Shown here piece after piece: positions 1 through 55,244 of a stretch of DNA of 64,000 nucleotides. Source of the stretch: Hysterangium stoloniferum (taxonomy: Eukaryota; Basidiomycota; Agaricomycetes; Hysterangiales; Hysterangiaceae). The stretch covers positions 1-64,000 of the forward strand of contig WHVD01000190.1 in assembly GCA_015178975.1 (NCBI GenBank), given 5' to 3'. The notes beneath the pieces are model-generated. The model was given only the letters and a program-made list of their open reading frames with translations. It was not told where the DNA came from and made no database searches. Each line of letters starts with the position of its first letter. Positions within the stretch are counted from its first letter, which is position 1. Both the position numbers and the translations under genes were made by a program.

Positions 1-406
1 TCGTCTCATTATTACTGGATTCGGTATGTCATGCATTCCACGGTCTATATAAACTGGCAGATGTTTGTACATACAATCCAGTCAGAAAAATTAGCTTAGA
101 TTCCCCCCAGTAATCTAATACATTTTCCTCTCTAAAAACCCTACTCTCATCAGACCGCTCGCACTAGTCGGAGCCCACGGGCTCCGGCGCATCTATCTCT
201 CTCGACTATCTCGATTCACGACTCTCGACTCACGACCTACGACTCACGACCCACGAACCCCCGCCCGGACTCCCCGGGATTCCCGTCCGCCTGTCTGAAA
301 TTGGACAACACGATCTAGCGAGGGCGCAGCCTATAAGCTGAAGCCAAGTCCTACCGGATATCCCGCGGGTTTCTCCGGAAACCCGGCCTGAGTGTGTATC
401 CTAACA
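1..406 (+). repeat. 5' LTR, truncated by window start
   Basis: Matches 7281-7684 of the 3' LTR. It ends in CCTAACA at 406. It contains the TATA box (46-53), the predicted RNA start (80), a 34-nt core shared with other LTR families here (318-351), and an 8-bp-stem hairpin (366-385, loop TCCG). Confidence 0.95.
46..90 (+). promoter_or_regulatory. LTR core promoter and predicted RNA start
   Basis: TATATAAA at 46-53. Thirty-four bases after its first base, at 80, comes AGTCAGAAAA, whose complement lies just after the LTR (410-419). By analogy with Tf1/sushi elements this should be the 5' end of the RNA, which folds back to prime reverse transcription. The 3' LTR copy (TATA 7326, start 7359) gives a perfect 11-nt match. 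Confidence 0.7.
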
Positions 407-419
407 GTATTTTCTGACT
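407..419 (+). other. Primer-binding site, self-priming type
   Basis: Two bases (GT) after the LTR end, 409-419 reads ATTTTCTGACT, the exact reverse complement of 7359-7369 in the 3' LTR R region. In the 5' LTR copy 10 of the 11 pair before an extra A. No match to a usual tRNA 3' end (such as TGGTATCAGAGC) is seen here. Self-priming is established for the Tf1/sushi clade; its use here is inferred. Confidence 0.65.
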
Positions 420-442
420 AATACTCGCAGATTGTTTTCATT

Positions 443-1735
443 ATGCCACCAAGAAGAAGTACACGCGCACAGTCATCAATGCCTGGACCGTCGACTCTTC
501 ATTCCCCGTTAACTCTGTATACCAGTCAGACGCTTGCGAACCAGTCGGAACCCATGGAAGAAGCCCGCATCGAAGAAATCCCGGAAGACCTGGACGAATC
601 CGAGCGCGAGGACGATTCCGTGGCCCCCGACAAGGGCAAAGGTGTCGAAATCCCTCTTGAAAATCCTCCGCCTTTTCAACGACCAAACACGAGGGATCCT
701 ACTTCTGAGTTTTTAGCAGGTACTATAGATAAATTCATGACGCACCTGCTAGAAGAACGAAAAAGAAAGGAACAAGAACCTCCACGGTCAAAAGTCAATG
801 CTCCGGAACCCTTCACGGGTTCCAACCCAAACAAACTCTCTACTTTCCTCATGCAATGTCGCTTCAATTTCCGCGATCGCGCCGCTGCATTCTCCACGGA
901 CTCCCGAAAAGTCAACTACGCACTTTCATATTTGTCGGGATCCGCGTTGAAATGGTTTGAACCGGCTTTTAGCGGGATTACCGAGGAAGAGCCGCTCTGG
1001 CTTGAAAATTGGGAAGCTTTTGTTGAGGAGCTTGAAACCAACTTCGGCCCGTATGACCCGACAGGAGAAGCCGAGAATAGTCTCACAAATCTTCGTATGA
1101 AGGACACGCAGCGCATCACGGACTACATCGTCCAATTCAATAATCTTGCAGCTCGTTGTCAGTGGGGCGATCCCGCTCTCCGCCACCAATTCTACGCCGG
1201 TCTGCCGTCCCGCCTTAAAGACGAAGTCTCAAAAGGAGAAGATGGCAAGCCAAAAACCCTGTCCCGTATGCGCCTCAAAGCTCAAAACGCGGACGCACGT
1301 TATTGGGAACGTCGCGCGGAAGTTGCCCGCGAGACATCCGCGGACAAAATAAATAAGTCCAAGGACAAAAACAATAACACCAATTCGTCAACCAGCAACC
1401 AGAACTCCACGCAATCCGACAAGAAGAACGATAAAAAGTCTTCAAACAACAACAACAACAATAAGGACAATAAGGACAACAACAAGGGTCAACAGTCCGG
1501 CAAGCAAGCCGGAAAACCCGACCTCTCAGGCAAACTCGGACCTGATGGCAAATTAACTCCACAAGAAAGACAACGTCGTATGGACAACAACCTCTGTCTC
1601 TTGTGCGGGAAACCCGGTCATCGAGTCCCGGAATGTCCGCTGGCAAAAGCAAACTCTTCAAAGGGTCGAACAGCCAAGGCCTCCACGGAAACCCCGTCGA
1701 AGGACAAACCGGCTGCCGATTCGAAAAAAGAGTAA
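443..1735 (+). CDS. gag: Gag polyprotein of the chromovirus
   Basis: 430-residue structural protein that forms the virus-like particle and binds element RNA. The N-terminal ~75 residues are acidic and low in complexity. The capsid-like retrotransposon gag region covers about residues 110-285 (motifs ALSYLSGSALKWFEP and FYAGLPSRLKDE). A lysine/asparagine-rich linker follows (about 295-360), then a CCHC zinc knuckle with C385, C388, H393 and C398. The ATG at 443 is the first after the primer-binding site and is 36 nt from the LTR end. The ORF ends at TAA 1733-1735 and overlaps pol. A decayed homologue lies at 53120-54502 on the minus strand. Confidence 0.93.
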   Translation: MPPRRSTRAQSSMPGPSTLHSPLTLYTSQTLANQSEPMEEARIEEIPEDLDESEREDDSVAPDKGKGVEIPLENPPPFQRPNTRDPTSEFLAGTIDKFMTHLLEERKRKEQEPPRSKVNAPEPFTGSNPNKLSTFLMQCRFNFRDRAAAFSTDSRKVNYALSYLSGSALKWFEPAFSGITEEEPLWLENWEAFVEELETNFGPYDPTGEAENSLTNLRMKDTQRITDYIVQFNNLAARCQWGDPALRHQFYAGLPSRLKDEVSKGEDGKPKTLSRMRLKAQNADARYWERRAEVARETSADKINKSKDKNNNTNSSTSNQNSTQSDKKNDKKSSNNNNNNKDNKDNNKGQQSGKQAGKPDLSGKLGPDGKLTPQERQRRMDNNLCLLCGKPGHRVPECPLAKANSSKGRTAKASTETPSKDKPAADSKKE

Positions 1736-4700
1736 GCAACCCCGCGGACTCCGCGCGGGTTAGGGGTTGCGTTGCCTCTCCGCGCATTCAAGAGTTCACT
1801 CGCCTCAACGCATCCGCTCTTTCACATTCTGATTCATTTTTCGTTAAACTTATGTCTAATATGCTTCCGAAATTCGTTTTTTCAGCTCTCATAGATTCCG
1901 GCTCGACTCATTGTTTTTTAGATACAAAATTCACGCAAAAAAATTCTTTGTCAACTTATTCGATAAATCCCGTCGCTCTCCGCCTCTTCGATGGCACAAG
2001 TAATTCGGTTGTTACCCAAGCTTGTGATTTACCCATCAGTTTCCCTTGTGGAACATCTCAATTGGTCACTTTCTATGTGACCCAGTTAGACTCAAGTTGC
2101 TCGGTGGTTCTAGGACATAACTGGCTTACCCGCTACAATCCGTTGATTGACTGGATAGCTAACAGTATAACATTCCGAACTCCCGCGGCGACCGAGGAAA
2201 CTGCGCCTGTCTCGGCCTCCACGGCACCCATGGCCTTCCCGGCACCTGCAGTCTCGAGGACTCCTGTGATCCCTACGGCACCCACAGCTTCCCCGGAACC
2301 CACGGCACCTCCGTCCATTTCTCTGATTAATGCTGCAGCTTTTATTAGGGCTTCAAAAATGGATGGATCCCAGGCGTTCACTATCAACTTAAAAATTGAT
2401 GAAGCAACTGGACGTTTCTCAACCCCAGTATCCGAATCTGAGCAAGCTGCTGACCTAGAAGGCGTCCCGGAGAAATACCATGACTTCGCGGATGTTTTTA
2501 GCAAGCGAAAAGCTGACCGGCTTCCGCCTCACAGAGAATACGACTTAAAAATCGATCTTGAAGATGGCGCCCAGCCACCCCTAGGACATATTTACCCGCT
2601 TTCGTCCACGGAACTATCCGCAATCCGTGATTTCCTGGATGAACATTTGTCCATAGGTTTTATTCGACCCTCAAAGTCTCCTTTTGGAGCACCTGTTTTG
2701 TTTGTCAGAAAAAAGGATGGATCCCTTCGACTATGTGTTGATTTTAGAGGACTCAATGCTGTCACCAAAAAGGACAAATATCCACTCCCACTTATATCTG
2801 ACCTGCTCGATGCTCCGCGGAATGCCCGGATTTACACCAAAATAGATCTCAAGCATGCCTATCATTTGGTCCGGATTGCCGCGGGCGATGAATGGAAAAC
2901 CACTTTTAGAACCCGCTATGGGGCTTTCGAGTGGTTGGTCATCCCTTTTGGACTCACTAATGCCCCGTCTGTTTTTCAGCGTTTTATCAACGACATTTTC
3001 TCCGACATGCTCGATGTATGCGTCATTGTTTACTTGGACGACATTCTTATCTACTCCGAGAATCCCGCGGAACACGACAAACAAGTCCGTGAGGTTCTCC
3101 GGAGGCTCAGACAACATGGTTTATTCGCAAATGGTAAAAAATGTACTTTTGACACGGACTCCGTGGAATACCTAGGTTTCATGATGGGACCCGATGGACT
3201 CCGCATGGACGAAACTAAAGTGCAAGTCATCAAAGACTGGCCCGAACCCCGAAAAGTTAAAGATATCCAATCCTTCCTCGGCTTTGCCAATTTTTATAGA
3301 CGTTTTATCCGTGGATATTCCGACATCACGGTACCCCTTACCCGTCTTACGCGTAAGGGTACTCCGTGGAACTTTAACGATAAGTGTCAAAAAGCTTTCA
3401 ATCTTTTAAAAAATTCTTTTTCCACAGCTCCTATTCTGTCGCATTGGAAACCGGACTTCCCGCTCATTGTTGAAACGGACGCCTCCGACTATGCACTTGG
3501 AGCCATTCTCTCTATCCAGGACTCCGACGGAGAAGTTCACCCCGTGGCTTTTCTGTCCCGGACTTTTACCGGAGCAGAGCTCAACTACGACGTTCATGAT
3601 AAAGAACTTCTGGCAATCTTTTCAGCTTTCAAAGCGTGGCGACACTATTTGGAAGGTTCAGGAGCTCCTATTGACGTTGTAACAGATCACAAAAACCTGG
3701 AATACTTTTCTACCACAAAACTCTTGACCCGTCGGCAGGCCCGCTGGTCTGAATATCTCTCCGCCTTCAACATGATTATCCGTTTTCGACCCGGCCGTCT
3801 CGGCGGCAAACCCGACGCTTTAACTAGACGATGGGACGTCTATCCTAAAGAGGGGAGCAACGACTATGCAACGGTAAATCCGCACAACCTGAAACCTATC
3901 TTCACGAATCAACAACTTACCGCATCGGTCCGCGCAACTTTCCTCGTCAATCCCATTGTCCGTGGAATTATCATTATGGATATCGAAAAGCTACATCAAG
4001 ATATTCTATCGGCAATTCCGCTAGACCCAGTTACTAAAGCTCATCTGGACAATCCCGTGGACCCCGATCAACCTCGGTGGTCTCTTGATCAACATGGTTT
4101 CATTAGACTTGACGATAGGATCTATGTACCGGACTCCGACGGCCTCCGCCTCAGGATCCTTCAATACAAACATGATCATCCACTCTCAGGACACTTCGGG
4201 TACAACAAGACTCTATCATTAATAAGAAGAGAATATACTTGGCCCGGACTCCGTGGATTCGTTAAGCACTATTGTAAATCTTGCACTACTTGTCCCCGCT
4301 CGAAATCTCAGCGACACAAGCCATATGGCCTTTTGAAACAACTCCCGGTACCGGAACACCCGTGGAATTCTATATCTATGGATTTCATTGAACACCTGCC
4401 GGATTCCGAAGGCTTTTCCGCTATCCTAGTCGTTGTTGACAGATTCTCAAAACAAGGTATATTCATCCCTACTTATGATACAATTACGTCCGTGCAGTTA
4501 GCGGAACTTTTTATTATCCACGTATTTTCCAAGCACGGAGTTCCGTCCCACGTGACTTCCGATCGAGGATCAGAGTTCGTGTCTCACTTCTTTAGATCCC
4601 TCGGAAAATCCTTGGACATGACATTACATTTCACGTCCGGACATCACCCGGAAGGTGACGGACAAACCGAACGCGTCAACCAGACATTGGAACAATACCT

Positions 4701-5460
4701 CCGCGTATATTGCAACTATCAACAGGACAATTGGAAAACCTTGTTACCACTTGCAGAATTTGCTTACAACAATGCACCCTCGGCCACTACTGGCGTTTCC
4801 CCGTTCTTTGCAAATAAAGGATATAATCCAAATATTACAGTACATCCAGAACGAAATCTCGCCTCTGTTCGTGCTCAAGAGTTCACCACGGACCTCCACG
4901 AGCTCCACGAGGAACTCCGGACTGCAATATTGTCCGCCCAAGAGCAATACCAACATTCAGCGGACAAACACCGGATCCCGCCACCAAACTTCAAGATTGG
5001 CGACCGTGTTTATGTCAAAGCTCAATTCTTCCGGACTACCCGTCCATCAAAGAAGCTTGCTGAAAAATATTTAGGTCCTTTTGAAATTATCGCACAAGTA
5101 GGTTCAGTTTCTTGGACTCTACGGCTTCCGGATAGCATGCGCGCGGTACACCCGGTATTTCATGTCTCTATGCTAGAACCTTGTACTGCTAACACTATCC
5201 CGGATCGCGTGCAATCTCCGCCTCCTCCTGTCGTCATTGACGGAGAACCCGAGTTTGAAATCTCTCAGATTTTAGATTCAAAAATTGACAAGCGTCGACG
5301 CACTTGTAAACTGCTTTACTTGGTCAAGTGGGCGGGTTACGAGGGCACCGATGAAGAAACCTCATGGATTTTGGCCACGGAACTTGGTAATGCCACGGAA
5401 ATTGTTACTGACTTTCATACAGCTTACCCACTCAAACCTGGACCATTATCGTCTCTCTGA
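1603..5460 (+). CDS. pol: Pol polyprotein: protease, RT, RNase H, integrase, chromodomain
   Basis: Open frame of 1285 residues counted from the in-frame ATG at 1603, but more likely translated by -1 slippage from gag near 1727. Aspartic protease motif DSGST starts at residue 98. Reverse transcriptase has YLDD at 477-480. RNase H follows (TDASDYALGA). Integrase has an HHCC zinc region (about 850-895) and catalytic D927, D987 and E1023, giving the D-35-E spacing expected for retroviral-type integrases. A GPY/F-like module (KYLGPFEI) precedes a C-terminal chromodomain (about 1217-1275, LYLVKWAGYEGTDEETSW), which in chromoviruses directs integration to marked chromatin. No disabling mutation seen, so the element may be active. 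Confidence 0.95.
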   Translation: MRETRSSSPGMSAGKSKLFKGSNSQGLHGNPVEGQTGCRFEKRVSNPADSARVRGCVASPRIQEFTRLNASALSHSDSFFVKLMSNMLPKFVFSALIDSGSTHCFLDTKFTQKNSLSTYSINPVALRLFDGTSNSVVTQACDLPISFPCGTSQLVTFYVTQLDSSCSVVLGHNWLTRYNPLIDWIANSITFRTPAATEETAPVSASTAPMAFPAPAVSRTPVIPTAPTASPEPTAPPSISLINAAAFIRASKMDGSQAFTINLKIDEATGRFSTPVSESEQAADLEGVPEKYHDFADVFSKRKADRLPPHREYDLKIDLEDGAQPPLGHIYPLSSTELSAIRDFLDEHLSIGFIRPSKSPFGAPVLFVRKKDGSLRLCVDFRGLNAVTKKDKYPLPLISDLLDAPRNARIYTKIDLKHAYHLVRIAAGDEWKTTFRTRYGAFEWLVIPFGLTNAPSVFQRFINDIFSDMLDVCVIVYLDDILIYSENPAEHDKQVREVLRRLRQHGLFANGKKCTFDTDSVEYLGFMMGPDGLRMDETKVQVIKDWPEPRKVKDIQSFLGFANFYRRFIRGYSDITVPLTRLTRKGTPWNFNDKCQKAFNLLKNSFSTAPILSHWKPDFPLIVETDASDYALGAILSIQDSDGEVHPVAFLSRTFTGAELNYDVHDKELLAIFSAFKAWRHYLEGSGAPIDVVTDHKNLEYFSTTKLLTRRQARWSEYLSAFNMIIRFRPGRLGGKPDALTRRWDVYPKEGSNDYATVNPHNLKPIFTNQQLTASVRATFLVNPIVRGIIIMDIEKLHQDILSAIPLDPVTKAHLDNPVDPDQPRWSLDQHGFIRLDDRIYVPDSDGLRLRILQYKHDHPLSGHFGYNKTLSLIRREYTWPGLRGFVKHYCKSCTTCPRSKSQRHKPYGLLKQLPVPEHPWNSISMDFIEHLPDSEGFSAILVVVDRFSKQGIFIPTYDTITSVQLAELFIIHVFSKHGVPSHVTSDRGSEFVSHFFRSLGKSLDMTLHFTSGHHPEGDGQTERVNQTLEQYLRVYCNYQQDNWKTLLPLAEFAYNNAPSATTGVSPFFANKGYNPNITVHPERNLASVRAQEFTTDLHELHEELRTAILSAQEQYQHSADKHRIPPPNFKIGDRVYVKAQFFRTTRPSKKLAEKYLGPFEIIAQVGSVSWTLRLPDSMRAVHPVFHVSMLEPCTANTIPDRVQSPPPPVVIDGEPEFEISQILDSKIDKRRRTCKLLYLVKWAGYEGTDEETSWILATELGNATEIVTDFHTAYPLKPGPLSSL
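1723..1735 (+). promoter_or_regulatory. Putative -1 ribosomal frameshift site at gag end
   Basis: Gag reads TCG AAA AAA GAG TAA. Pol is open in the -1 frame across the same point (reading EKRVSN). A six-A run directly before the gag stop is a plausible slippery stretch. A slip from AAA-AAA to GAA-AAA is not a perfect heptamer, so I call it putative. The pol frame is open from at least 1603. Confidence 0.45.
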
Positions 5461-5670
5461 CCGCACTCCGCGGACCCCGTGTTACGTTTGGACTCATTTT
5501 CACTATTCCCTGTCGCCCTATGTCTCTCTTTGCTTTTACAGGTTCTGACATGTCTTGTCAAGTCTTTAAGCGGAATCCCCGCGGACTTTGGCTTTGACTT
5601 TTAATTCTTATGTTTTTTCTTTCACGCTTTGCTTTTATAATTCAAATTATTTTTATTCTACACTACTTTT
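5461..5670. other. Gap between the 3' ends of pol and the antisense gene
   Basis: The two reading frames converge on this 210-base stretch. It is T-rich (5600-5680), which would suit RNA 3' ends. No other coding signal seen. Confidence 0.4.
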
Positions 5671-6653
5671 TCAGTCTACATTTATGGGACTGTTCTTTTT
5701 CCCTGCTTCCTCAGCTATCTCCTCTGGGAGCTCCGCGACTTCCGCGGCAACCCCGTCCTCATCCGATCCGGCATCCTCGGAACTCCCGACTTGCGGCTCT
5801 TCAAAGACATAGCCGCCATACTCCGCCAGGAACTTCCAAAACTCCTCGCGGAGTCCGGACAGCTCCTTTGCCACCACAATTTGGACCTTGTTGCTCTTCC
5901 GGAGCAACTCGTTTTGGGCCTCGATGCCCTCGGCGATCCGTCCAAGGACCTCGTCCAACCCGGACAACCCGTCCGTCCCGCTTATGTCTCGCGCCCCGGA
6001 TCCCGTGGCCTGCTCGTGCACAAGCGAGCACCTCGCCTTGAGGTGCGCGCATTGATAACATCCCGGCCCCCGGCCGGCCTTTCGGTTGCATTCCGTGTTC
6101 CGGTCGTTGCAACCGGAACACCGCGGCTCGTTCCGCGTCGGAAGACGGACTGGCGCCGCCTTCCTTGCCTTCTGTTGAGTTGGTCAGTCTCCGCGGGTAT
6201 TCCATGGACGTGAGGCCTACCTTTTGGGGGCTCTCTGGCTCCCCCTCGGACTCGGACTCCACCTCTGTCGCTTTGCGCTGAAGATCACAAGTCAGTAAAC
6301 AATCGACAAGTGAATTTGGGACTTACTTTTCCCGCAACAATGGCGGCCCTCTCCGCGGCCAACCGGGCTTTCTCCGCAGCCACCCGGGCGTTCTCCGCGG
6401 CCACTCGCGCAGCCTCCTCCGCCTCACGTTCCCTCTCCTTTGCGGCCTCTTCCTCCGCGGCCAATGCTTCCTGGTACTCCTTGTCCAGGGCCTCCTCAGC
6501 CTCCCTCGCCTCTCTCTCTGCTGCTTCACGAAGCTGGCGCTGCTCTTCTCGCCGCGCCAACAATTGGGCCGCCGTCCACGGCGCCCGATACGGAGTGCCC
6601 GTGGAGGGCCCTGCTGTCGGCATTGGTTTGCGTGGTGTTGGTTTTGGTCCCAT
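5671..6653 (-). CDS. Antisense accessory gene: coiled coil plus Zn(II)2Cys6 cluster
   Basis: Three exons on the minus strand: 6653-6327, 6277-6221 and 6171-5671. Introns are 6326-6278 and 6220-6172, both 49 nt, phase 0, with donors GTAAGT and GTAGGC and CAG acceptors; the joined frame is open for 294 residues. Residues ~1-30 are basic and Pro-rich. About 30-105 is an Ala/Glu/Arg heptad-like coiled coil. Exon 2 is acidic. Exon 3 has C146, C149, C156, C166, C169 and C176, that is CX2CX6C-X9-CX2CX6C, which fits the fungal binuclear zinc cluster, followed by a second helical part and an acidic tail. It has its own TATA box. A similar gene is in the element at 48962-55244. A DNA-binding or regulatory role is inferred from the cluster only. 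Splicing is predicted, not observed. Confidence 0.78.
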
Positions 6654-6705
6654 AGTGACGAAGATGGGGGTAATAAAGAAGAAGAAATTTCTATTTTTTC
6701 AATTT

Positions 6706-6713
6706 TTTATATA
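6706..6713 (-). promoter_or_regulatory. TATA box of the antisense accessory gene
   Basis: Minus-strand TATATAAA begins 60 nt before the ATG at 6653. It lies inside the element, 151 nt from the 3' LTR, and points away from it. The second element has TATAAATA 55 nt before the matching ATG (51457-51464). Confidence 0.6.
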
Positions 6714-6850
6714 GGCTCGTCGCGTTTGAACCTTACCTTCCAGATCACATGACTCTTTGACACATACGTGTAACCGACATGACTTTTGACACATGCGCGT
6801 AGCCGACAAGAACCTTATTTAGGTCTAGAGCCTCTTTGGGACTTCGGCAT

Positions 6851-6863
6851 AAAGGGAGGATAC
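6851..6863 (+). other. Polypurine tract
   Basis: AAAGGGAGGATAC directly before the TGTTA start of the 3' LTR; the standard plus-strand primer of LTR retroelements. The second family has AATGGGGGAATAC in the same position. Confidence 0.85.
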
Positions 6864-7684
6864 TGTTACGACCCGGACAAATCCCGCCGGACTCCGGGCA
6901 CTAACTCGTATGCCTCCACGCGCTACAAGCACCAATCGTCTGTTTATAGGATTTCCCGCCCGGACTCCGTTACGTCAAGACTCGTTACGTTCGACCTCAT
7001 TAAGACACATATCAGTCACCGGACTTCCCCCGGACCCCGTCTCTGTCTATGTCCGTCTTCGTCCCACGCATCAGTCACCGGACCCGCTTAGAATCCCGTC
7101 ACCGCTCTAATCGAGCCCCGTTCCCGTTTTAGTCAAATGACCTGTCACGATTTAGGACTCCGCTCCCACTCCGTTTCCCGTTATGGGTTATGCTTTGTCA
7201 CGATTCGGACTCCGCTCCGTTCCGTCCCGTTCCTAACACCAATTTGGTGTTTACTATTCCCGTTTTATGTTTTGCTCGTCTCGTCTCATTATTACTGGAT
7301 TCGGTATGTCATGCATTCCACGGTCTATATAAACTGGCAGATGTTGTACATACAATCCAGTCAGAAAATTAGCTTAGATTCCCCCCAGTAATCTAATACA
7401 TTTTCCTCTCTAAAAACCCTACTCTCATCAGACCGCTCGCACTAGTCGGAGCCCACGGGCTCCGGCGCATCTATCTCTCTCGACTATCTCGATTCACGAC
7501 TCTCGACTCACGACCTACGACTCACGACCCACGAACCCCCGCCCGGACTCCCCGGGATTCCCGTCCGCCTGTCTGAAATTGGACAACACGATCTAGCGAG
7601 GGCGCAGCCTATAAGCTGAAGCCAAGTCCTACCGGATATCCCGCGGGTTTCTCCGGAAACCCGGCCTGAGTGTGTATCCTAACA
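6864..7684 (+). repeat. 3' LTR, complete (821 bp)
   Basis: Starts TGTTACGACCC and ends CCTAACA (5-bp inverted ends TGTTA/TAACA). TATA box at 7326-7333, predicted R start at 7359. The core motif at 7596-7629 is shared with other LTR families of this window. Confidence 0.95.
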
Positions 7685-45547: not shown

Positions 45548-47139
45548 CAGTGACCCAAAAAAGCATCCGGATGTTTGGTGAAATTGGGAAGATGGGTTTA
45601 CAGCTCCAGAAATAAAATAGATAAAATTCTGAATAAATCAGAGGTAAGAGGTATACATCTGACCTACATGATGACATAAGCATGACATCATAGCTTTTCT
45701 TATCAGGGAAGTAGGAAATGAACAATGGACATGGTGCATCCGGACATTTTTTTTGCTCTGTCAACTGATACATGAAACTCAACTAAGGTTCATATAACTG
45801 TGGGAATTTCTGGTTAGGTTCAACAATGTCATGTGACCACATGTTTAAATAACACATTTACATGAACCTTTGCCTCAATTCACCCCCCCACCACATGATG
45901 AAGAAGCACTCTACTGAAACAAGGCTCTCTGTCATTTCTCTTCTCCAGGAAGGTCACTCCTGCAGAACAATTGCTTCTAAACTTTATATTGGGCACTCTA
46001 CAGTATCAGAAATTCACTCCCAACTCCCTGGTCCACTTCCAACACCTTCCAGAGGTTGTCCTCCCAAACTCTCCCCCAGGGATTATCACCTGGCTTGTTC
46101 TATCACCTCTGGACAGGTTGATAATGCCTCCCAAGCCAAGTCCCACCTCTCCCTCAATGTCTGCACACAGACAATTAGAAATGCATTGAAGAAAGAGAAT
46201 TTGAAGGCTGTGGTGAAGGCCAAAAGACCTCTTCTTGCCTGTCGACACATCAAGGCTCAATATGAGTTTGCTATCAAGTACTAGCATTGGACTGAGGAGG
46301 ACTGGTTTAGGGTTATCTTCTCAGATGAGACCAAAATCAATCATTTGGGCTCTGATGGGAGGTTGTGGGTATGGAAAAGACCAGGTTCTGCACTCACTCA
46401 GCAGCATATCAATGGAACTATCAAATTTGGAGGGGGGAGTCTAATGATTTGGGGATGTATGACAGCACATGGTGTGGGGTACATGTGCAAGATAGATGGG
46501 AGGATGGATGGGGAGATGTACAAGGACATATTGGAGGACTATATCTTCAAAACAGTGGAGTATTATGGGATGGACAGGGCAATGTTTGTCTTCCAGCAGG
46601 ACAATGACCCTAAACACACTTGCAACTTGGCCAAGGATTGGTTCAAGGACCATCAGGTGGAGGTTTTAGACTGGCCTGCACAGTCTCCAGACCTGAATCC
46701 AATAGAACACTTATGGTGGGAGTTGAAGAGAAGGCTTGGAACATACCCTGAGGCACCCAAGAGCATATTGGAGCTCTGGGAGAGAGTGGAGGTGGAATGG
46801 GAGGGTATTCCAAGGGAGAAATGCCTTGAATTGATCAAGAGCATGCCTAGAAGGGTTGCTGCAGTACTAAAGGCCAAGGGGGGATACACTAAATACTGAA
46901 ACTGGTAAAAACTAGTAATTAATTACAAGAGCAAAAAAAGTGTCCGGATGCACCATGTCCATTATTAATTTCCTACTTTCCTGATAAGAAAAGCTATGAT
47001 GTCATGCTTATGTCATCATGTAGGTCAGATGTATACCTCTTACCTCTGATTTATTCAGAATTTTATCTATTTTATTTCTGGAGCTGTAAACCCATCTTTC
47101 CAATTTCACCAAACATCCGGACGCTTTTTTGGGTCACTG
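45548..47139 (+). mobile_element. Tc1-type DNA transposon with ~220-bp inverted repeats
   Basis: 1592 bp between TA dinucleotides (45546-45547, 47140-47141). Ends CAGTGACCCAAAAAAGC, with inverted repeats about 220 bp long and nearly identical. Carries one transposase gene. Confidence 0.92.
45862..46899 (+). pseudogene. Tc1 transposase with a single in-frame TAG
   Basis: 345-codon frame with a helix-turn-helix N-terminus (RTIASKLYIGHSTVSEI) and a DD34E catalytic core: SDETKIN, FQQDNDPKHT, SPDLNPIEHLW. The only defect seen is TAG at 46282-46284, between the DNA-binding and catalytic parts. Cut-and-paste transposition at TA sites is established for the family. Confidence 0.88.
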
Positions 47140-49111
47140 TATCGCTCAAGTCACCACATCGGAAACCATCACCCCCGATGCTGACGTATGCTTTTGTGGT
47201 GATCAAACTCCATTTATGCCCACGTCAAAATATACTCGTACTATCTGGTTAAACTTTTGATACGTCCCTTTTATTATCATGATCTGTTCTATCCTATGTT
47301 TCACATATGCCTATTGTGAAGGGTATGCTTTTACCACAGTTTCATTGTGGTAAAACACTCCTTTTATTTTATTTATATTTTACATATTCTATTCATATTT
47401 TTCTATCTTTCATATTCTTCAAATATTGCATATTTCATTAGTTCGAAGCATTGTGTATACTTGTGGGTGCACTCAGCACCAATTGGAACTCAGACACACT
47501 TTAACCCAAGAACCACCACTCGTAAGACACAAACTAGGTCTACTACGAGCGGTGATCAGGGTAACGTGTCAGCTACTGCATAAGTAGCAATATCTGAACT
47601 ACTAAACACTTCTGGCCTCGAACTATAACAGTCGAGGCCTCCACTTGAACCATCACACTCGTTGACTCCTTCGTCATCTTGTGCTCTTTCTCTCATTTTC
47701 TCTTATATTGCACCGAATAGGTCAATATCCTCCTTTTCTACTCATTTCTTCGTATATAGAACGGTCTGAACTTCTACCACTCTTCACACCTATATATACT
47801 TGTAACCCTCGAACTATTTCCTTTTCCCGTAATTATGCTCTCGGTTATCTCTTCGGCCTCCGAACTAATCATAAACTTCCTGTTCCTAGTCAGGCTTATT
47901 GTCAATACCCTGTTCCGCTCTTCTCCTAGTTAGTATTTTCTAGATGCCTGATACTTGTATATGAACCTGCTGTAGTTGTAGTTACTAGGCAATCAGAATA
48001 TCGACTCAGAATACCCTCTTACACCTCTAGCAGTCTTGTACTAAGAATCCCCTCATCCACCTTTGCGTGCGCTCGTCCACTCTCGGTCACCGACCCTTGG
48101 CCCGACATTTGACTTAACCTTCGGTCCTGATCGGTATCTCACTGAAAGGAACTCATTAGGATTAGTCTTCGCCCGCCCGAAATTTAAGGACACTCAACAG
48201 ACATTTGCGAGGGCACAGCACATAAGCTGAAGCCAAGTCCTTCCGATCGGTCCCTGTCGGCCAACCGACATCAGTCAGTTTTCAGTTCTTAACAATTTTG
48301 TGCACTACAAGATTCTATTAATTTCCTTATAAGGAAATCAATTTGAAATTTTGTGGCAAACAAAATCCATTTCTTAAATTTCACCTCACTGAGAAGGATT
48401 TTGAGTGTCCCCTACAGGGGATCAGCCCAGCAGTGTAAGTCAATCAGGGGGCTGACAATAGAGATCATACTAGTCAGGAGGTTTGACTCTATAAATGTAG
48501 TGGAGCTTGGCTTCAACTTATGTGTTGCACCCTCACACAAATTGTTAGGGTGCTCCAGTATTTCAAACAGAGCAGATAGTACAATAGGAATGAAGATCAA
48601 CACTTAGCTCAATTGACCGGAGGGCCAAATTACTAAGAGTTGTAGGGTAAGGGATTGTGGCTTGCCAAAGATACCTTCAAGGGTATTAGAATAGGAGTAA
48701 TAGGACTGAGAACTAGAAGGGGGTAATCTAAGTTGATATTTGAACTGGAGAACTGTAGCATACATGGAAAGAGCTTTATATTACTGTGAGATGGATGATC
48801 AGGGGGCTGATCAGAGAAGTGAGAGTGATGACAAGTTAAAAAGACATAGGGGAAGGAACAGGGATCTAAATGAGACTAAATACAATATAACAAAGCATTC
48901 TGAAAAGGTATGAGGTAGCAAATGGGATGTACTGTATAGTATACATGGAAATGGTGATGGGTGTTAAGATCTAAGCCAGAAAGAGGGGGAATGCTCTAGT
49001 CAGAGGGCTGATAATGGGAAATGAGTTAATTGGGGGGCTGACGATAGAGATCATACTAGTTGGAGGTCTGACTCTATGTATAACTGTAGTGGAGCTTTTC
49101 AACTTACAGTA

Positions 49112-50728
49112 CAGTGGCTCAAAAAAGTGTCCAAATGTTTCAGACTTTTTCAAAGAAAATCCAATACCAAATTACATAGGGCATCTATAATCATTATATA
49201 ATGGTAGAAATTGAACTTTAATATCTCAGCTACAAAATGATTCCAACTCTGTCCTAGTCCAATCAGAATTGGTGGAACTATAAACTTTTGAAAACATAAG
49301 CACACTTGGACACTTTTTTTTGAGCATCATTTTTTAAATACAAAACAACGGTTCAGTACTTTGTATTGCCTCCCTTCACCTTAATTACAGCTTCCAACCT
49401 TCTGGGCATACTTTCTATGAGTCCCTGACAATCTTCTTCAGTGATATGTATTCCCTCACTCTGTTGATGCCCACTCCCATAATTCCCAAACTCTCTTAGC
49501 TGGTACCACATAATCCAAAATCTTCCTTTTCAAGGTAGTCCAGAGATGTTCAATGAGATTGAGGTCTGGGGATTGTGCTGGCCAGTCCATAACAGTGATA
49601 TTTTGATCTTAAAACCATTTCTAAGCAATTTTTGAGGTATGCTTGGGATAATTGTCCTGTTGGAATATTAATTCCCCTTCCATAATTTCCAATTCCCCAA
49701 TGCTTCTCAGAAGACCATGCTCCCAAATGCTCACATACTGTTTGGCATTCATCTTTCCCTCAACCTTACAAAGAATTCCAGGCCCATTCCCCATGCAACC
49801 CCAAACCATCCTCCAAATTTGACAGTCACTTCCACCTCCCTGTCTCCAAGTGGTTCTCCAGGCCTTTTCCAGCAATAATGGTGTCCATCTGACCCAAATC
49901 TATTGATTTGGTCTCATCTGACCAGATAACTCACTTCCAGTGCTCTACTGTCCAATTTTGGTGCTTCTCAGCAAAAGCCAATATGGCTTTATGGTACCTG
50001 GGAGAGAGAAAAGGCCATTTCTTCTTTGCATAAGACTTGTAACCCTCCTGCTTGAGTGTATTTCTGATGGTTTGTACAGAAACAGGGTCCTGCAGGATGG
50101 AGTTGATGTGTTTGGCAGCTGCAATAGCAGTATTAGCCTTGCCAGTCCTGACCAAGGTGTGCATGGCTCATTGATTAACAGCTGATAGTTTCTTGGGATG
50201 TCCATATTTGATGTTTTCCTTCTCAGAGTCATGGATTTTGTAAACATTGGAGACTGTACTCTCTCTAAACCAAGCTTTTTGGCAAGTTTCCTGGTAGAAT
50301 AGCCAGAAGAGAGGAGGGAAATAATGCTCTCATATACACATATATAGCAGTGGAGGCAGGCTTTATTGGGCTAAGTAATGGATAGAACATGAATTCAACC
50401 ACTTTATATACTGATTGAACAATAATGATGTCATAGGTATCCATGACAACCAACATCAACTTTATATTAAGGCACACATAGCCTGTATTAAATAGATTTG
50501 TATATGAAAATAGTATACTCAAAAAAGTGTCCAAGTGTACTCATATTTTTGAAAATTTATAGTTCCAGTGATTCTGATTGGATAAGGACAAAATTGGGCT
50601 CATTTTGTAGTTGAGATACTAAAGTTTAATTCTTACTATTACATAATGGGAATTCACACTTTGCATGATTTGTTATTGGATTTTCTTTGAAAAAGTCTGA
50701 AACATTTGGATACTTTTTTGAGCCACTG
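49112..50728 (-). mobile_element. Second Tc1-type transposon, different family
   Basis: 1617 bp between TA dinucleotides (49110-49111, 50729-50730). Ends CAGTGGCTCAAAAAAGTGTCC, long imperfect inverted repeats (200 bp or so). Related in end sequence but not the same family as 45548. Confidence 0.88.
49340..50260 (-). pseudogene. Decayed Tc1 transposase
   Basis: Minus-strand pieces include VQTIRNTLKQEGYKSYAKKK (N-terminal part), GELIFQQDNYPKHTSKIA (second catalytic Asp) and a [10 protein letters not shown] block with several stops and frameshifts. Not functional. Confidence 0.8.
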
Positions 50729-51326
50729 TATGTGTTATGCCCTTACACGAACTGTCAGGGTGCTCCAGTATTTAAGAACAGAGCAGATAGTATGATATGA
50801 GTAAGAGTCAACACTTACATAGCTTAATCGACTGGAGGGCTGAATCACTAAGAGTTGAGAGGTAGAGAGTTGTGGCTTACTGTAGACCACTCTTTAAGAA
50901 TGTAGTGATGAGAGGGAATGGCAAAAACTAAGAGGGGCTAATCTAAGTTGATATTCAAACTGAAGAACTGTAGTGTACATAAAAAGAGCTTTATACCACA
51001 TTGAGACAGGTGATGGGAAGGCCAATCAGAGAAGTGAAGTGTAGGATGGATCAAAGGGAAGTGATGATGAGGTAGGGAGTGATAGAAACTAATGTATAGT
51101 ACTAAGAAACAATTTTAGGTGGCAATAAGGAGTATATGTGGAGATGGGGACAGAGGAGCAGATGGAGTGGAGATGGAATGGTTGCTAGTTCATTATGAGC
51201 AAGTATCAGGGGAGCTGTGAGGGGTAATGACATATATATGTAGGTGGCAGCTCCAATAATGAGATGACAAGGGGTTTTTTAGTGAAAAACAAGTCGTGGG
51301 GGGTCCAAAATGACAGGATCCTAACA

Positions 51327-51511: not shown

Positions 51512-52153
51512 ATGGCTCCTCCTTTCTTCTTACCCAGTCTTAGTGAAGAGGACAACATTGAGGTCCTTCATCAACAGTTACAGGAAGCCAAGGAGAAGAA
51601 ACAACTCTGCAAGGAATGGGAGGCCACCAAGAAGAAACAAAAGGAGGCAGATGATTGTAAGATGGTGATGGCATTGAAGAGGAAAGCTGCCAATGATGTG
51701 AGGGGTAGAGATAGTGATAGAGGGAGAGGTAGAGGAATGGCAGGGTCCAAGGTGAGTATGTGTTTCTTCTTGTATGAACCTTGGCTGATCATTCTACAGG
51801 TGAAGAGGAGGCATATGATTGTGGATGATGAGGATGATGATGAGGAGTATGAGGAGGAGGAGGTCAGGGGTCTAAACAGTAAGTAATGTCCTTTTATTCC
51901 ATTTTTTTGTTTTGACACTTTTCCTTATAGGAAGACTCCTGTTTTGGGGGGTCCATTGTGTGTGGGATGCACAACTGTGGGCATCTGTTGCACTCCCATG
52001 GGCTTTAACAGATCCTGTGCACAGTGCAACAGGAGGAAAAAGAGTTGTAGTCTGGCAATTGTGTCATTGGAGTCAGTGGTGGAGCCACTGAAGGAAATTG
52101 GGGAAGCCCTCAAAGGAATCTTAGAAGTTCTAGAGGCAATGGCATACCATTGA
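51512..52153 (+). pseudogene. Accessory zinc-cluster gene of the gag-only element (likely decayed)
   Basis: Exons 51512-51751, 51800-51878 and 51931-52153; introns GTGAGT...CTACAG (48 nt) and GTAAGT...TTATAG (52 nt). Exon 1 is a charged coiled-coil-like segment ending Gly-Ser-Lys at a phase-0 intron, then a basic/acidic exon (KRRHMIVDDEDDDEE). Exon 3 (51959-52048) encodes CX2CX6C-X8-CX2CX6C with NRRKKS in the last loop, then an amphipathic helix. The simplest splice of exons 2 and 3 is one base out of frame, so a frameshift or other splice exists. It is antisense to gag, next to the 3' LTR, as at 5671-6653. Confidence 0.65.
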
Positions 52154-53119: not shown

Positions 53120-54502
53120 GTCTGAGGGCTTTTCAGCCTTAGCAGCTTGAGCTTTGGTGTTGTTGAGAGGACACTTGTTTGCCATGTGTCCCAGGGTGCC
53201 ACACCTGAGGCAGAGATCATTGTTCCTTTCATCATTGCCTATCCTCAGGTGTCAGCTTACTGTCAGTACTGAGTATGGAACTTAAATCATCCTTTGGCTT
53301 GGTCACAGAAGTTCCAGTTTTGCTGTTTGAGGCTGCTGTGTTGTTAGGGGTTGAATCAGTCCTATTTTTAATTTTGGACTTCTTCAAGGAGTTGTTGCCA
53401 TTGTTGTTGGTCAACAAGGGTTGTTCACTGTTTTGGTTCATCTTTGCCAGGTGGTCTGAGGAGGTTTCTCAGTTGATTTCAGCATGCCATTCCCAGTATT
53501 GAGCATCACATTGCTGAGCTTTCATGCACATGTCAATGAGTGTAGTTGGCTTGCCATCACCTCGATAGATGTTATCCTTAATATGAGATGGAAGGCCTGA
53601 ATAAACCCTATGATGTAGGGCAGAGTCACCCCAATCGATGAGTGTAGCAAGGGAGTTACATAAACTGAACAATGTATTTGGTGATCCACTGGCTGTCTTT
53701 CATTTTAGTATTGGCTAAAGTGGTTTCAGCATTGCCAACTGCATCATGGGGTCCAAAATTAAGTTTGAGCTTTGTAATGAAAAATGGATAGTTGTTGAGC
53801 CAGCTGGGTTGATAGACATTGAGATTTATTGAGTGCCAGTTTGAACCAATTCATGGTGGTGCCCCAAAGAAATGATAAGGCAAATATAACCTTGCTTCTG
53901 TCAGTAGCAAATTCATCAGGGCAGTTGTTGAAAGTTAAACTGCATTGCATAAGGAATGGCCACAGTTTTGAGGTATCAGTTCCATGAAAAATATTGGGTT
54001 CCTTAACCTTGGCTCATCGGGCAGTCTGCCCTCAATTATTTTTGAGGAAAGTGGTGAGTCCTTCAAATGCTGTTCTAAGACTAGTCAGTGATTAGTGGAG
54101 TACCATGAGATGTACCTGCTGAACTATTTCCAGAATGATGAGAACCAGAATGTGGGCTGTGGTGTGAATTCAGAGGTCCACCACCTTGGGGGCTTACCAC
54201 CAAAACTGTGATGAGAACTGGGAGGTCCACTACTGTGGGAGCTATGTAGGTGGGCCACCACTGGGGATACTACTGTGATGTGAGCTGTTGTGGATTGACT
54301 GGGGAGGGTTTGAGAAGTGCTGGAAAATGCTTCCACCTGGGCTCAAGGGAACCAGAAGAAGCTTGGTGGGCTCACTGGGGTCCAAGCATTGGAGGTATAT
54401 ATGGTCCAGAAGTGTTGTCATCAGGGATCTGACATACTGTTGATCAGTGGTATAAACTGTAACCCTTCTGATAGCTTCTTGTCTAGCATCAAAGGGGTTC
54501 AT
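53120..54502 (-). pseudogene. Decayed gag of the gag-only element
   Basis: Minus-strand pieces align with the gag at 443-1735: 53950-53759 (MQCSLTFNN..., matching MQCRFNFRD...), 53672-53469 (YSGLPSHIKDNIYRGDGKP, matching FYAGLPSRLKDEV), a linker with KLTPEDRQ, and a CCHC knuckle near 53216-53170 (CLRCGTLGHMANKC). Frameshifts separate them. Confidence 0.85.
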
Positions 54503-54544: not shown

Positions 54545-55244
54545 TGTTAAGATCTAAGCTGGGAGAGGGGGAATGCTCTAGTCAGAGCACTGATGATAGA
54601 GATTGTACTAGTTGGGAGGTCTGACTCTATAAGTGTAGTGGAGCTTGGCTTCAACTTATGTGTTGTGCCCTTACATAAACTGTCAGAATGCTCCAGTATT
54701 TCAGAACAGAGCAGATAGTACGATATGAGTAAGAGTCAACACTTAGCTTAATCAACCAGAGGGCTGAATCACTAAGAGTCAAGAGGTAGACGGTTGCAGC
54801 TTGCTGAAGACCACTCTTTAAGTATGTAGCAATGAGAGGGAAAGGTAAAAAACTAAGAGGGGCTAATCTAAGTTGATATTCAAACTGAAGAACTGTAGTG
54901 TACATGAAAAGAGCTTTATACTATATTGAAACAGGTGATGGGAAGGCCAATCAGAAAAGCAAAGTGTAGGACGGATCAAAGGGAAGTGATGATGAGGTAG
55001 GGAGTGATAGAAACTAATGTATAGTACTAATACTAAGAAACAATATTAGGTGGCAATAAGAGTATACATGGAGATGGGGATGGAGGAGTGGATAGAGTGG
55101 AGACAGAATGGGTTGCTCGTTCAATATGAACAAGTATCAGGGGAGCTGTAAGTAATGATGTGGGTGGGGGCTCCAATAATGAGATGACAAGGGTTTTCTT
55201 AGTGAGAAACAAGTCACAGGGGTCTGAAACAACAGGATCCTACA
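54545..55244 (-). repeat. 5' LTR of the gag-only element
   Basis: 700 bp, TGTTAAGATCTAAGC...GGATCCTACA (one base lost at the end). Contains TATA and predicted RNA start as above. Confidence 0.85.

Follow-up and report, generated by a model that had tools for sequence, protein, structure and literature searches.

An antisense, intron-bearing gene between pol and the 3' long terminal repeat of chromodomain gypsy elements in Hysterangium stoloniferum, with signs of cassette exchange

The antisense gene and its host element

Our subject is a gene that lies antisense to gag and pol in a gypsy-type retrotransposon at the start of contig WHVD01000190.1 of the basidiomycete Hysterangium stoloniferum. 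The analysed stretch, which we call the window, covers 64 kb from the start of this 146-kb contig, in an assembly of 111 Mb and 554 contigs. The gene occupies 5671-6653 of the minus strand, between the end of pol at 5459 and the start of the 3' long terminal repeat (LTR) at 6864, and comparison of its copies marks it as protein-coding and subject to purifying selection. We refer to the family of the window element as fam1, to a second, old family in the window as fam2, and to a third group as fam3a and fam3b. The parts of the element and of the gene are as follows.

1-406, plus strand: 5' LTR, clipped by the contig start; 404 of 406 positions identical to 7281-7684, with two 1-base gaps
443-1735, plus strand: gag (Pfam match to Retrotrans_gag and open reading frame; zinc knuckle under the cut-off)
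1852-5459, plus strand: pol, with protease, reverse transcriptase, ribonuclease H, integrase and chromodomain (Pfam and open reading frame; frame open from 1546)
5671-6653, minus strand: antisense accessory gene, three exons, 294 residues (gene model; 60 copies; ratio of non-synonymous to synonymous rates, dN/dS, 0.243 from 40 near-intact copies)
6327-6653, minus strand: exon 1, 109 residues, charged, rich in Ala, Glu and Arg, ending ..AGK, with the ATG at 6653 (gene model)
6278-6326, minus strand: intron 1, 49 nt, phase 0, GTAAGT..CAG (GT..AG in 60 of 60 copies, length 48-64 nt)
6221-6277, minus strand: exon 2, acidic, RKATEVESESEGEPESPQK, with an RK start and a proline-lysine end as in fam3 (gene model)
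6172-6220, minus strand: intron 2, 49 nt, phase 0, GTAGGC..CAG (GT..AG in 59 of 60 copies, GC..AG in one; length 48-52 nt)
5671-6171, minus strand: exon 3, with a basic stretch, the six-cysteine module (protein residues 146-176), a long helix, an acidic tail and the stop
6707-6713, minus strand: TATATAA box, 60 nt before the ATG (exact in 56 of the 58 copies with the region)
6740-6764, minus strand: conserved upstream block TGTGTCAAAGAGTCATGTGATCTGG, around CATGTGA (25 bases, mean identity 99.7% in 58 copies)
6851-6860, plus strand: polypurine tract AAAGGGAGGA (L086 of fam3a and L108 of fam3b have a similar tract at this place)
6864-7684, plus strand: 3' LTR, TGTTACGA..CTAACA (match to the 5' LTR part)

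The element is a chromodomain gypsy element, with RVP_2, RVT_1, RT_RNaseH, Integrase_H2C2, rve and Chromo all above the Pfam cut-off and in this order, and the match of 404 out of 406 positions between the 5' LTR remnant and the 3' LTR marks it as a young insertion. A preliminary description, made from the letters of the window, had proposed a three-exon minus-strand gene with a TATA box and a CX2CX6C-X9-CX2CX6C cluster between pol and the 3' LTR; this model was reproduced and extends to 60 copies.

The evidence for a coding gene comes from these copies. A genome search with exon 3 gave at least 150 matches among 1341 candidates, of which the best 19, the window included, were identical across 166 residues. 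The sample that we aligned consisted of the window and 59 other copies, namely 29 of the best 30 matches plus 30 of the 150 that are more divergent. Pol adjoins the gene in all 59 of the others, although copies that lack the gene would escape this count since all were fetched through it. In the 40 near-intact copies the codon bootstrap range of dN/dS was 0.183-0.317 for the gene, and the end of pol gave 0.182 (0.119-0.278) in the same comparison; we regard the codon bootstrap as the fairer statement of error because the copy pairs are not independent. The pairwise ratio of the proportions of non-synonymous and synonymous differences (pN/pS) was 0.259 for the gene (46 of 50 rows free of stops in the reference columns; 744 pairs at least 1% apart) and 0.180 for the pol end. 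Read in the wrong frames, the gene gave 1.17-1.55 in four cases out of five and 0.32 in the fifth, the antisense frame that mirrors the codon positions. With codons restricted to those free of CpG the ratios were 0.107/0.069, values which are conditional on the removal of codons and show only that the result does not hinge on CpG decay. Two outcomes that would have spoken against the preliminary description did not occur: other copies of the family do carry the gene, and its dN/dS is not near 1.

The pattern of change along the locus is that of exons and introns. Mean identity to the window over 49 copies was 0.941 and 0.932 in the two introns and 0.975, 0.986 and 0.970 in exons 1 to 3, next to 0.956 in the spacer on the pol side, 0.989 in the spacer on the promoter side and 0.986 at the pol end; low identities at 6765-6864 were disregarded, as the fetched stretches end there. 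Indels not divisible by three made up 58 of the 68 in introns and 11 of the 32 in exons, where the remaining 21 were multiples of three. The motif cysteines were kept at 358 of 360 positions. Between fam3a and fam3b the gene shows a pN of 0.195 and a pS of 0.70. A chance open frame is ruled out by the 60 aligned copies, the kept splice ends, the dN/dS and the cysteines.

These same data bear on three other explanations of the locus. The plus strand holds long open frames of its own (5641-6210 and 6214-6711), and together with the low ratio in the mirrored frame they could mean that the real gene is on that strand and the minus-strand gene is its shadow. We find this scarcely credible, as the frame 6214-6711 crosses intron 1, which drifts, varies in length and gathers indels that are mostly not in threes, and the splice ends, the cysteine motif and the promoter boxes all fit the minus strand. 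Capture of a host gene from the genome, carried since then as passive cargo without use, would leave just such an antisense cassette with introns, but this is highly improbable given the purifying selection in the 60 fam1 copies and between fam3a and fam3b. Finally, the antisense RNA and not the protein could be the working product, with convergent transcription silencing gag-pol through double-stranded RNA. The convergent layout and the conserved promoter region would suit this, and such a role has been discussed for plant elements (PMC7264820). Silencing by the RNA alone, which had been among the first suggestions for this locus, is nevertheless disfavoured because selection acts on the protein: the dN/dS, the six cysteines, the kept splice ends and the exon indels mostly in threes make it very unlikely, although RNA and protein could both act.

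The protein of the window has the cysteine spacing C-X2-C-X6-C-X9-C-X2-C-X6-C. An AlphaFold2 model of exon 1 alone, from a single sequence, places residues 28-108 in one long helix, with a predicted local distance difference test score (pLDDT) of 90-98 by block from residue 31 and a mean of 88. The model of exon 3, from six sequences, has a long helix at residues 66-121 of the exon (block pLDDT 79-94 over 71-120) and two short helices of low confidence at 19-24 and 39-44, one for each half of the module, where the block pLDDT over the cysteines is 43-56. One short helix per half would fit the expectation for a zinc cluster and falls short of proof. By eye, basic patches adjoin the exon joints in an alignment of five rows.

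Upstream of the gene, the order of promoter words is common to fam1, fam3a and fam3b: first GTCGG-TAC, then TGTGTCA, then CATGTGA and last a TATA-like box, with the intervening sequence changed (read by eye). The box lies 57-60 nt before the ATG, at -57 in both fam3a and fam3b, and that of fam3b was placed by eye as the script pattern missed it. The shared boxes support a promoter of the gene's own, adjacent to the LTR, from which we infer that the gene is transcribed. Two 27-nt direct repeats, spaced 29 nt from start to start (TTTGACACATACGTGTAACCGACATGA and an 85% copy), are found at 6756-6811, directly upstream of the antisense promoter. A genome-wide probe with the pattern TATAAA-N14-ATG was not used; it matched 803/823 times and its reversed control more often, 1180/1165 times.

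Relatives and exchange between lineages

Weak matches of the fam2 exon (E 0.05 to 0.75) led to fam3a (for example L085 and L086; 292 residues) and fam3b (L108; 300 residues). The fam3 models have three exons, with exon 1 ending in GK and an acidic exon 2 of the form RKA..SPK followed by the six cysteines, and in L086 and L108 a polypurine tract and LTR start lie upstream of the gene. Two alignments of fam1 with fam3 proteins, which span 178 and 131 residues, give identities of 30 and 36%, with BLASTP E-values of 1e-6 and 7e-9 that were obtained with the low-complexity filter off and over stretches that include the helix. Since the two groups in addition have the same cysteines and the same intron positions, we read their similarity as common descent. 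All six cysteines are invariant in the five-row alignment, and the spacing between the two halves is X9 in fam1, X10 in fam3 and X8 in fam2. This level of identity, beside a dN/dS of 0.24, bears out the earlier proposal that the plan of the gene is kept under selection as its sequence diverges. Searches with exon 3 of fam3a and of fam1-like queries gave at least 150 matches each (518 and 954 candidates). Of 23 sequences from fam1 subfamilies and fam3, 19 have pol downstream of the gene and antisense to it, and in L082, L099, L102 and L109 none was found within the stretch examined. Clean full-length models were obtained for the window, L094, L096, L085, L086, L106 and L108; a 61-nt choice for intron 2 was dropped in the modelling for a nearer acceptor.

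The divergence between related copies is not spread evenly. This becomes apparent when the window is compared with the fam1 subfamilies L092 or L096: identity per 100 bases is 85-97% on the LTR side and in pol and 65-82% inside the gene, and the edges of the divergent part fall near the ATG and just beyond the stop. Against L096, synonymous differences number 100 of 198 in the gene and 26 of 179 in pol (Fisher p 8e-14). In fam3 the same contrast takes in more of the 3' end. L108 (fam3b) is 94-100% identical per 50 bases to L086 or L090 (fam3a) across about the last 670 bases of pol that were compared, but identity falls to 78-92% in the 300 bases that adjoin the gene and to 40-84% in the gene and promoter; the first part of U3 is diverged as well, down to 48%, and for L086 the LTR beyond it is 94-98% alike. 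L086 and L108 differ at 9 of 125 synonymous sites over the first 182 codons of the pol end, at 34 of 55 over the last 79 and at 144 of 204 across the gene (Fisher p of 2e-14 and 2e-32 for the contrasts). Among pairs whose pol is 95-98% identical (584 pairs; 73 of 90 sequences passed the length filter for both parts), gene identity goes down to 73%. In the pol comparison stops were masked and L086 was used; the values from L085 (synonymous 0.26, non-synonymous 0.167) were set aside because a stop in that copy distorted the comparison, and L088 was left out since it differs from L108 all along upstream of the middle of the gene and looks broken there. L104 and L108 have, against L086 and L090, near-identical pol ends and strongly different 3' ends.

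Such a contrast in divergence does not arise from one shared history at a constant mutation rate, so parts of these elements have been exchanged or homogenised by recombination. From these alignments, the gene behaves as an exchangeable cassette that looks to have been swapped between families, in fam3 together with part of U3.

Fam2 is represented in the window by a decayed element on the minus strand.

50729-51323, minus strand: fam2 3' LTR piece, 86.2% identical over 603 aligned columns to 54657-55242
51512-52153, plus strand: decayed fam2 relative of the gene, with C-X2-C-X6-C-X8-C-X2-C-X6-C
53123-54013, minus strand: fam2 gag remnant (tblastn with fam1 gag, 43-54% identity)
54657-55242, minus strand: fam2 5' LTR piece (same LTR comparison)

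The preliminary description had seen a gene of the same layout in this second family, antisense to its gag. The plan, the motif and the antisense orientation hold, but the link to the other groups is weak, as beyond plan and motif it consists of E-values of 0.05 to 0.75, and the window copy appears by eye and against its relatives to be decayed, with an early end and a second splice one base out of phase. The gene does not overlap gag, whose remnant lies clear of it, and since the element runs on the minus strand the gene is again on the side of the 3' LTR. From its sequence the fam2 gene is best taken as a weaker relative. Its exon 3 has 56 matches in the genome, many with stops. At 20 fam2 loci gag was on the opposite strand in five and a piece of pol was present in one, there on the gene's own strand and upstream, so the position of the gene is less certain than in fam1 and fam3. 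In the fam2 copies L064, L066 and L035 long repeats that encode runs of Glu/Asp or Gly-Glu-Asp have taken the place of the acidic stretch of exon 2. No match to pol was found in the window outside the first element. Elsewhere in the window, two stretches at about 45550-47140 and 49110-50730 have inverted ends and by eye a Tc1/mariner-type look, and the second adjoins a fam2 LTR piece.

Beyond these families, a homology search with the fam2 protein gave two candidates, none at an E-value up to 10. A profile search gave the ENA protein P0004, from a 1300-base contig and with 17 member sequences, which has C-X2-C-X6-C-X8-C-X2-C-X6-C followed by a charged stretch and is a possible relative, though its E-value of 0.71 is not significant. 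A profile search of viral contigs gave 109 pattern matches of which none was confirmed, and sequence searches against solved structures gave nothing relevant. The other protein hits, the public H. stoloniferum gene models P0001-P0003, contain by eye only parts of these element genes, and such partial models may hide the gene family from protein searches.

Predicted function of the antisense protein

The function toward which we lean, tentatively, is that of an accessory DNA-binding protein that acts in trans and keeps the LTRs of its own family active against host silencing. The gene would have a TATA promoter of its own beside the 3' LTR and be transcribed in the direction opposite to gag-pol, and the transcript would then be spliced. 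Both the gene and its introns run antisense to the genomic RNA, so that the introns survive retrotransposition, and their retention would mean that the protein is made only by nuclear transcription of integrated copies. The predicted layout of the protein is a long charged helix, an acidic stretch with basic patches, the six-cysteine module and a second long helix; it would most likely enter the nucleus, pair through its helices and bind DNA of its own element family, at the U3 of the LTR and perhaps at many CGG words of the element. A separate promoter would let the protein act while the LTR is shut. On the contrast in divergence, recombination exchanges the gene between lineages, in one case along with part of U3, and this would suit a module by which family specificity is set. 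Repression seems to us less likely than activation or anti-silencing, since in a selfish element activation should be rewarded directly by selection and since the promoter is separate from the LTR.

The module has the Zn(II)2Cys6 spacing C-X2-C-X6-C-X5-12-C-X2-C-X6-8-C, and zinc-cluster proteins read CGG triplets. Fragments of U3 and CGGACTCCG-type words are candidate targets for the six-cysteine domain. We counted CGG words in the internal region against dinucleotide shuffles, and in pol and gag against 300 shuffles of synonymous codons. The internal region of the window element has 17 CGG-N3-CCG where 2.2 are expected and 22 CGG-N5-CCG where 1.9 are expected. In pol the counts are 9 against 1.6 and 12 against 1.8, and none of the 300 shuffles reaches either; in gag they are 2 and 5, with one CCGCGG, and these are reached in 5, 1 and 60 of the 300 shuffles, so that they are partly not significant. 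The whole element has 23 against 2.6 and 28 against 2.4, but we prefer the counts of the internal region because those of the whole element include the shared LTR part twice. An excess of the N3 word is seen in fam3a (7 against 0.7) and fam3b (10 against 0.8) without one of the N5 word, and other heptamers are on top there. The window element (1-7684) is rich in CGG-N3-CCG, CGG-N5-CCG, GGACTCC and CCGYGGA in coding and non-coding parts alike. GGACTCC is biased to one strand, with nine on the plus and one on the minus strand of the internal region and five and none in the LTR; the other words have no preference. By analogy with the VANC proteins, the CGG words could form a field of candidate binding sites.

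Several results weigh against the preferred reading of a DNA-binding anti-silencing factor carried on an exchanged cassette. The Pfam Zn_clus profile (PF00172) stays under its cut-off of 21 bits in all the forms tried, with 8.0 bits for the whole fam1 protein, 8.5 for fam2, 13.9 for the cut-out fam3 module and 15.5 for the cut-out fam1 module, and whole fam3 proteins were not listed. Scans of the antisense proteins against Pfam gave no family above cut-off. For these scores we call the module zinc-cluster-like and do not place it in the family: of the first assignment to the Zn(II)2Cys6 DNA-binding domain the spacing remains, but not the profile match, and the structure model, with its low pLDDT across the cysteines, is uninformative there. 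Among the 23 related sequences the script found the three-exon model in just 11, two of which (L103 and L109) are implausible, and the rest are decayed or different. No significant match outside H. stoloniferum was found among 5.8 billion proteins, by a method that depends on five-residue words in common and thus does not establish absence more widely. Several further CGG spacings are also enriched in the window element, and both the N3 and the N5 words are unremarkable in the fam1 subfamilies L092, L094, L096 and L098, where the excess is perhaps missing through CpG decay. The word counts all come from families that carry the gene, and words within pol would not travel with a swapped gene. 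Tree-topology tests of the exchange (approximately unbiased test, 16 sequences) were not significant, with p of 0.128 and 0.065, and the claim of exchange therefore rests on the contrast in divergence. The genes of the window and L096 differ, yet their U3 is common to both. Finally, an activator and a repressor fit the present evidence alike and cannot be told apart by it.

The exchange of the gene between elements with near-identical pol ends does suggest a role in specificity. It is possible, if doubtful, that the gene is an exchangeable specificity module whose product is predicted to bind its own U3 and CGG words and which is swapped with U3 or apart from it. Were this true, a swap of specificity would change the set of copies that are activated or excluded, much like the immunity type of a phage or the anti-silencing target of a VANDAL element. 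A somewhat improbable rival to the preferred reading is a self-repressor or immunity gene, which would bind the U3 of its own family, lower its transcription, limit copy number and exclude like copies, so that a swapped cassette would free an element from resident repressors as the heteroimmune regions of temperate phages do. The exchange of the gene together with part of U3 in fam3 and the deep divergence of the cassette beside near-identical pol ends would agree with this. A parallel is HBZ of human T-cell leukaemia virus type 1 (HTLV-1), which acts on the viral promoter. Antisense retroviral regulators of this sort are known (PMC11963269). Restraint is however harder than activation to maintain in a selfish element, and the window and L096 differ in the gene and not in U3.

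We consider it unlikely that the protein is instead a factor for integration or nuclear entry, which would take the pre-integration complex to the nucleus or to chosen chromatin and aid the chromodomain. The basic patches beside the exon joints, again by eye, and the inclusion in the fam3 diverged block of the last part of pol, the site of the chromodomain, could point this way, as could the Grande antisense protein, which has been reported to be nuclear (PMC7264820). On the other hand, the pol end is alike in the pair of the window and L096, and in fam3 the pol end may fall within the diverged block just because it is adjacent.

Comparison with known systems

Antisense extra genes of LTR retrotransposons are already documented, in a literature that includes PMC8365987, PMC4227169 and PMC5987419, and excerpts of one review call their function unknown (PMC7264820). 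What we add is one antisense retrotransposon gene established from its sequences as an intron-bearing protein gene, under purifying selection and in several families of one fungus. A six-cysteine, intron-bearing, exchangeable antisense gene in a basidiomycete was not met in searches of the open-licence literature, where brtn of Boty was the sole fungal precedent met, and a term search of a survey of fungal LTR elements (PMC3248453) did not find the word antisense in its main text. The pairs of fam3a with fam3b and of the window with L096, with similar pol ends and different cassettes, are defined material for direct tests of function.

The plant aORF-3R genes (gene23 of Grande, RIRE2, Retand, PvRetro13) resemble our gene in their position between pol and the 3' LTR, their antisense orientation, their conservation across copies and their proposed nuclear or regulatory role (PMC7264820). 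Gene23 of Grande has its own promoter (PMC7264820), and TRP28 of Retand is said to be probably DNA-binding (PMC11963269). The plant elements differ in having other domains (TRP28, SMC), and Retand is described as non-chromoviral, whereas the host here is a fungal chromodomain element. Our gene is also set apart by its three exons, its six-cysteine module and its signs of cassette exchange, the last of which the excerpts on the plant genes do not mention.

The fungal Zn(II)2Cys6 regulators of the Gal4 type (PF00172) offer a likeness at the level of the module, which has C-X2-C-X6-C-X9/10-C-X2-C-X6-C followed by a helix. The module departs from that family in that its first half aligns with profile positions 16-31 of 39, in the later half of the family's domain, and in that the half which bears the lysine is the second. 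HBZ of HTLV-1 is a basic leucine zipper protein. It is encoded antisense to an LTR element, as our protein is, and is a nuclear regulator (PMC11963269). HBZ however comes from a retrovirus and its antisense promoter is inside the 3' LTR (PMC7264820), and we claim no homology.

VANC of the Arabidopsis VANDAL elements is likewise a factor encoded by the element, with fast divergence of related factors and dense short DNA words (PMC5735166). In VANDAL these words are arrayed in one orientation, and the VANC factor and its target co-evolve (PMC5735166). VANDALs, unlike our elements, are DNA transposons with another protein and with words that are mainly non-coding, whereas the words here extend to coding parts and binding to them is predicted.

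The most important precedent is brtn of Botrytis cinerea, an antisense gene carried there by gypsy elements of the Boty type (Zhao et al. 2011, Virology, a title cited in PMC8365987 and PMC4227169). Its host is an ascomycete, and we liken the two by description and not by the BRTN sequence. On that description Boty, like the element in the window, is a fungal chromodomain gypsy element with an extra antisense gene between pol and the 3' LTR (PMC7264820, PMC4227169).

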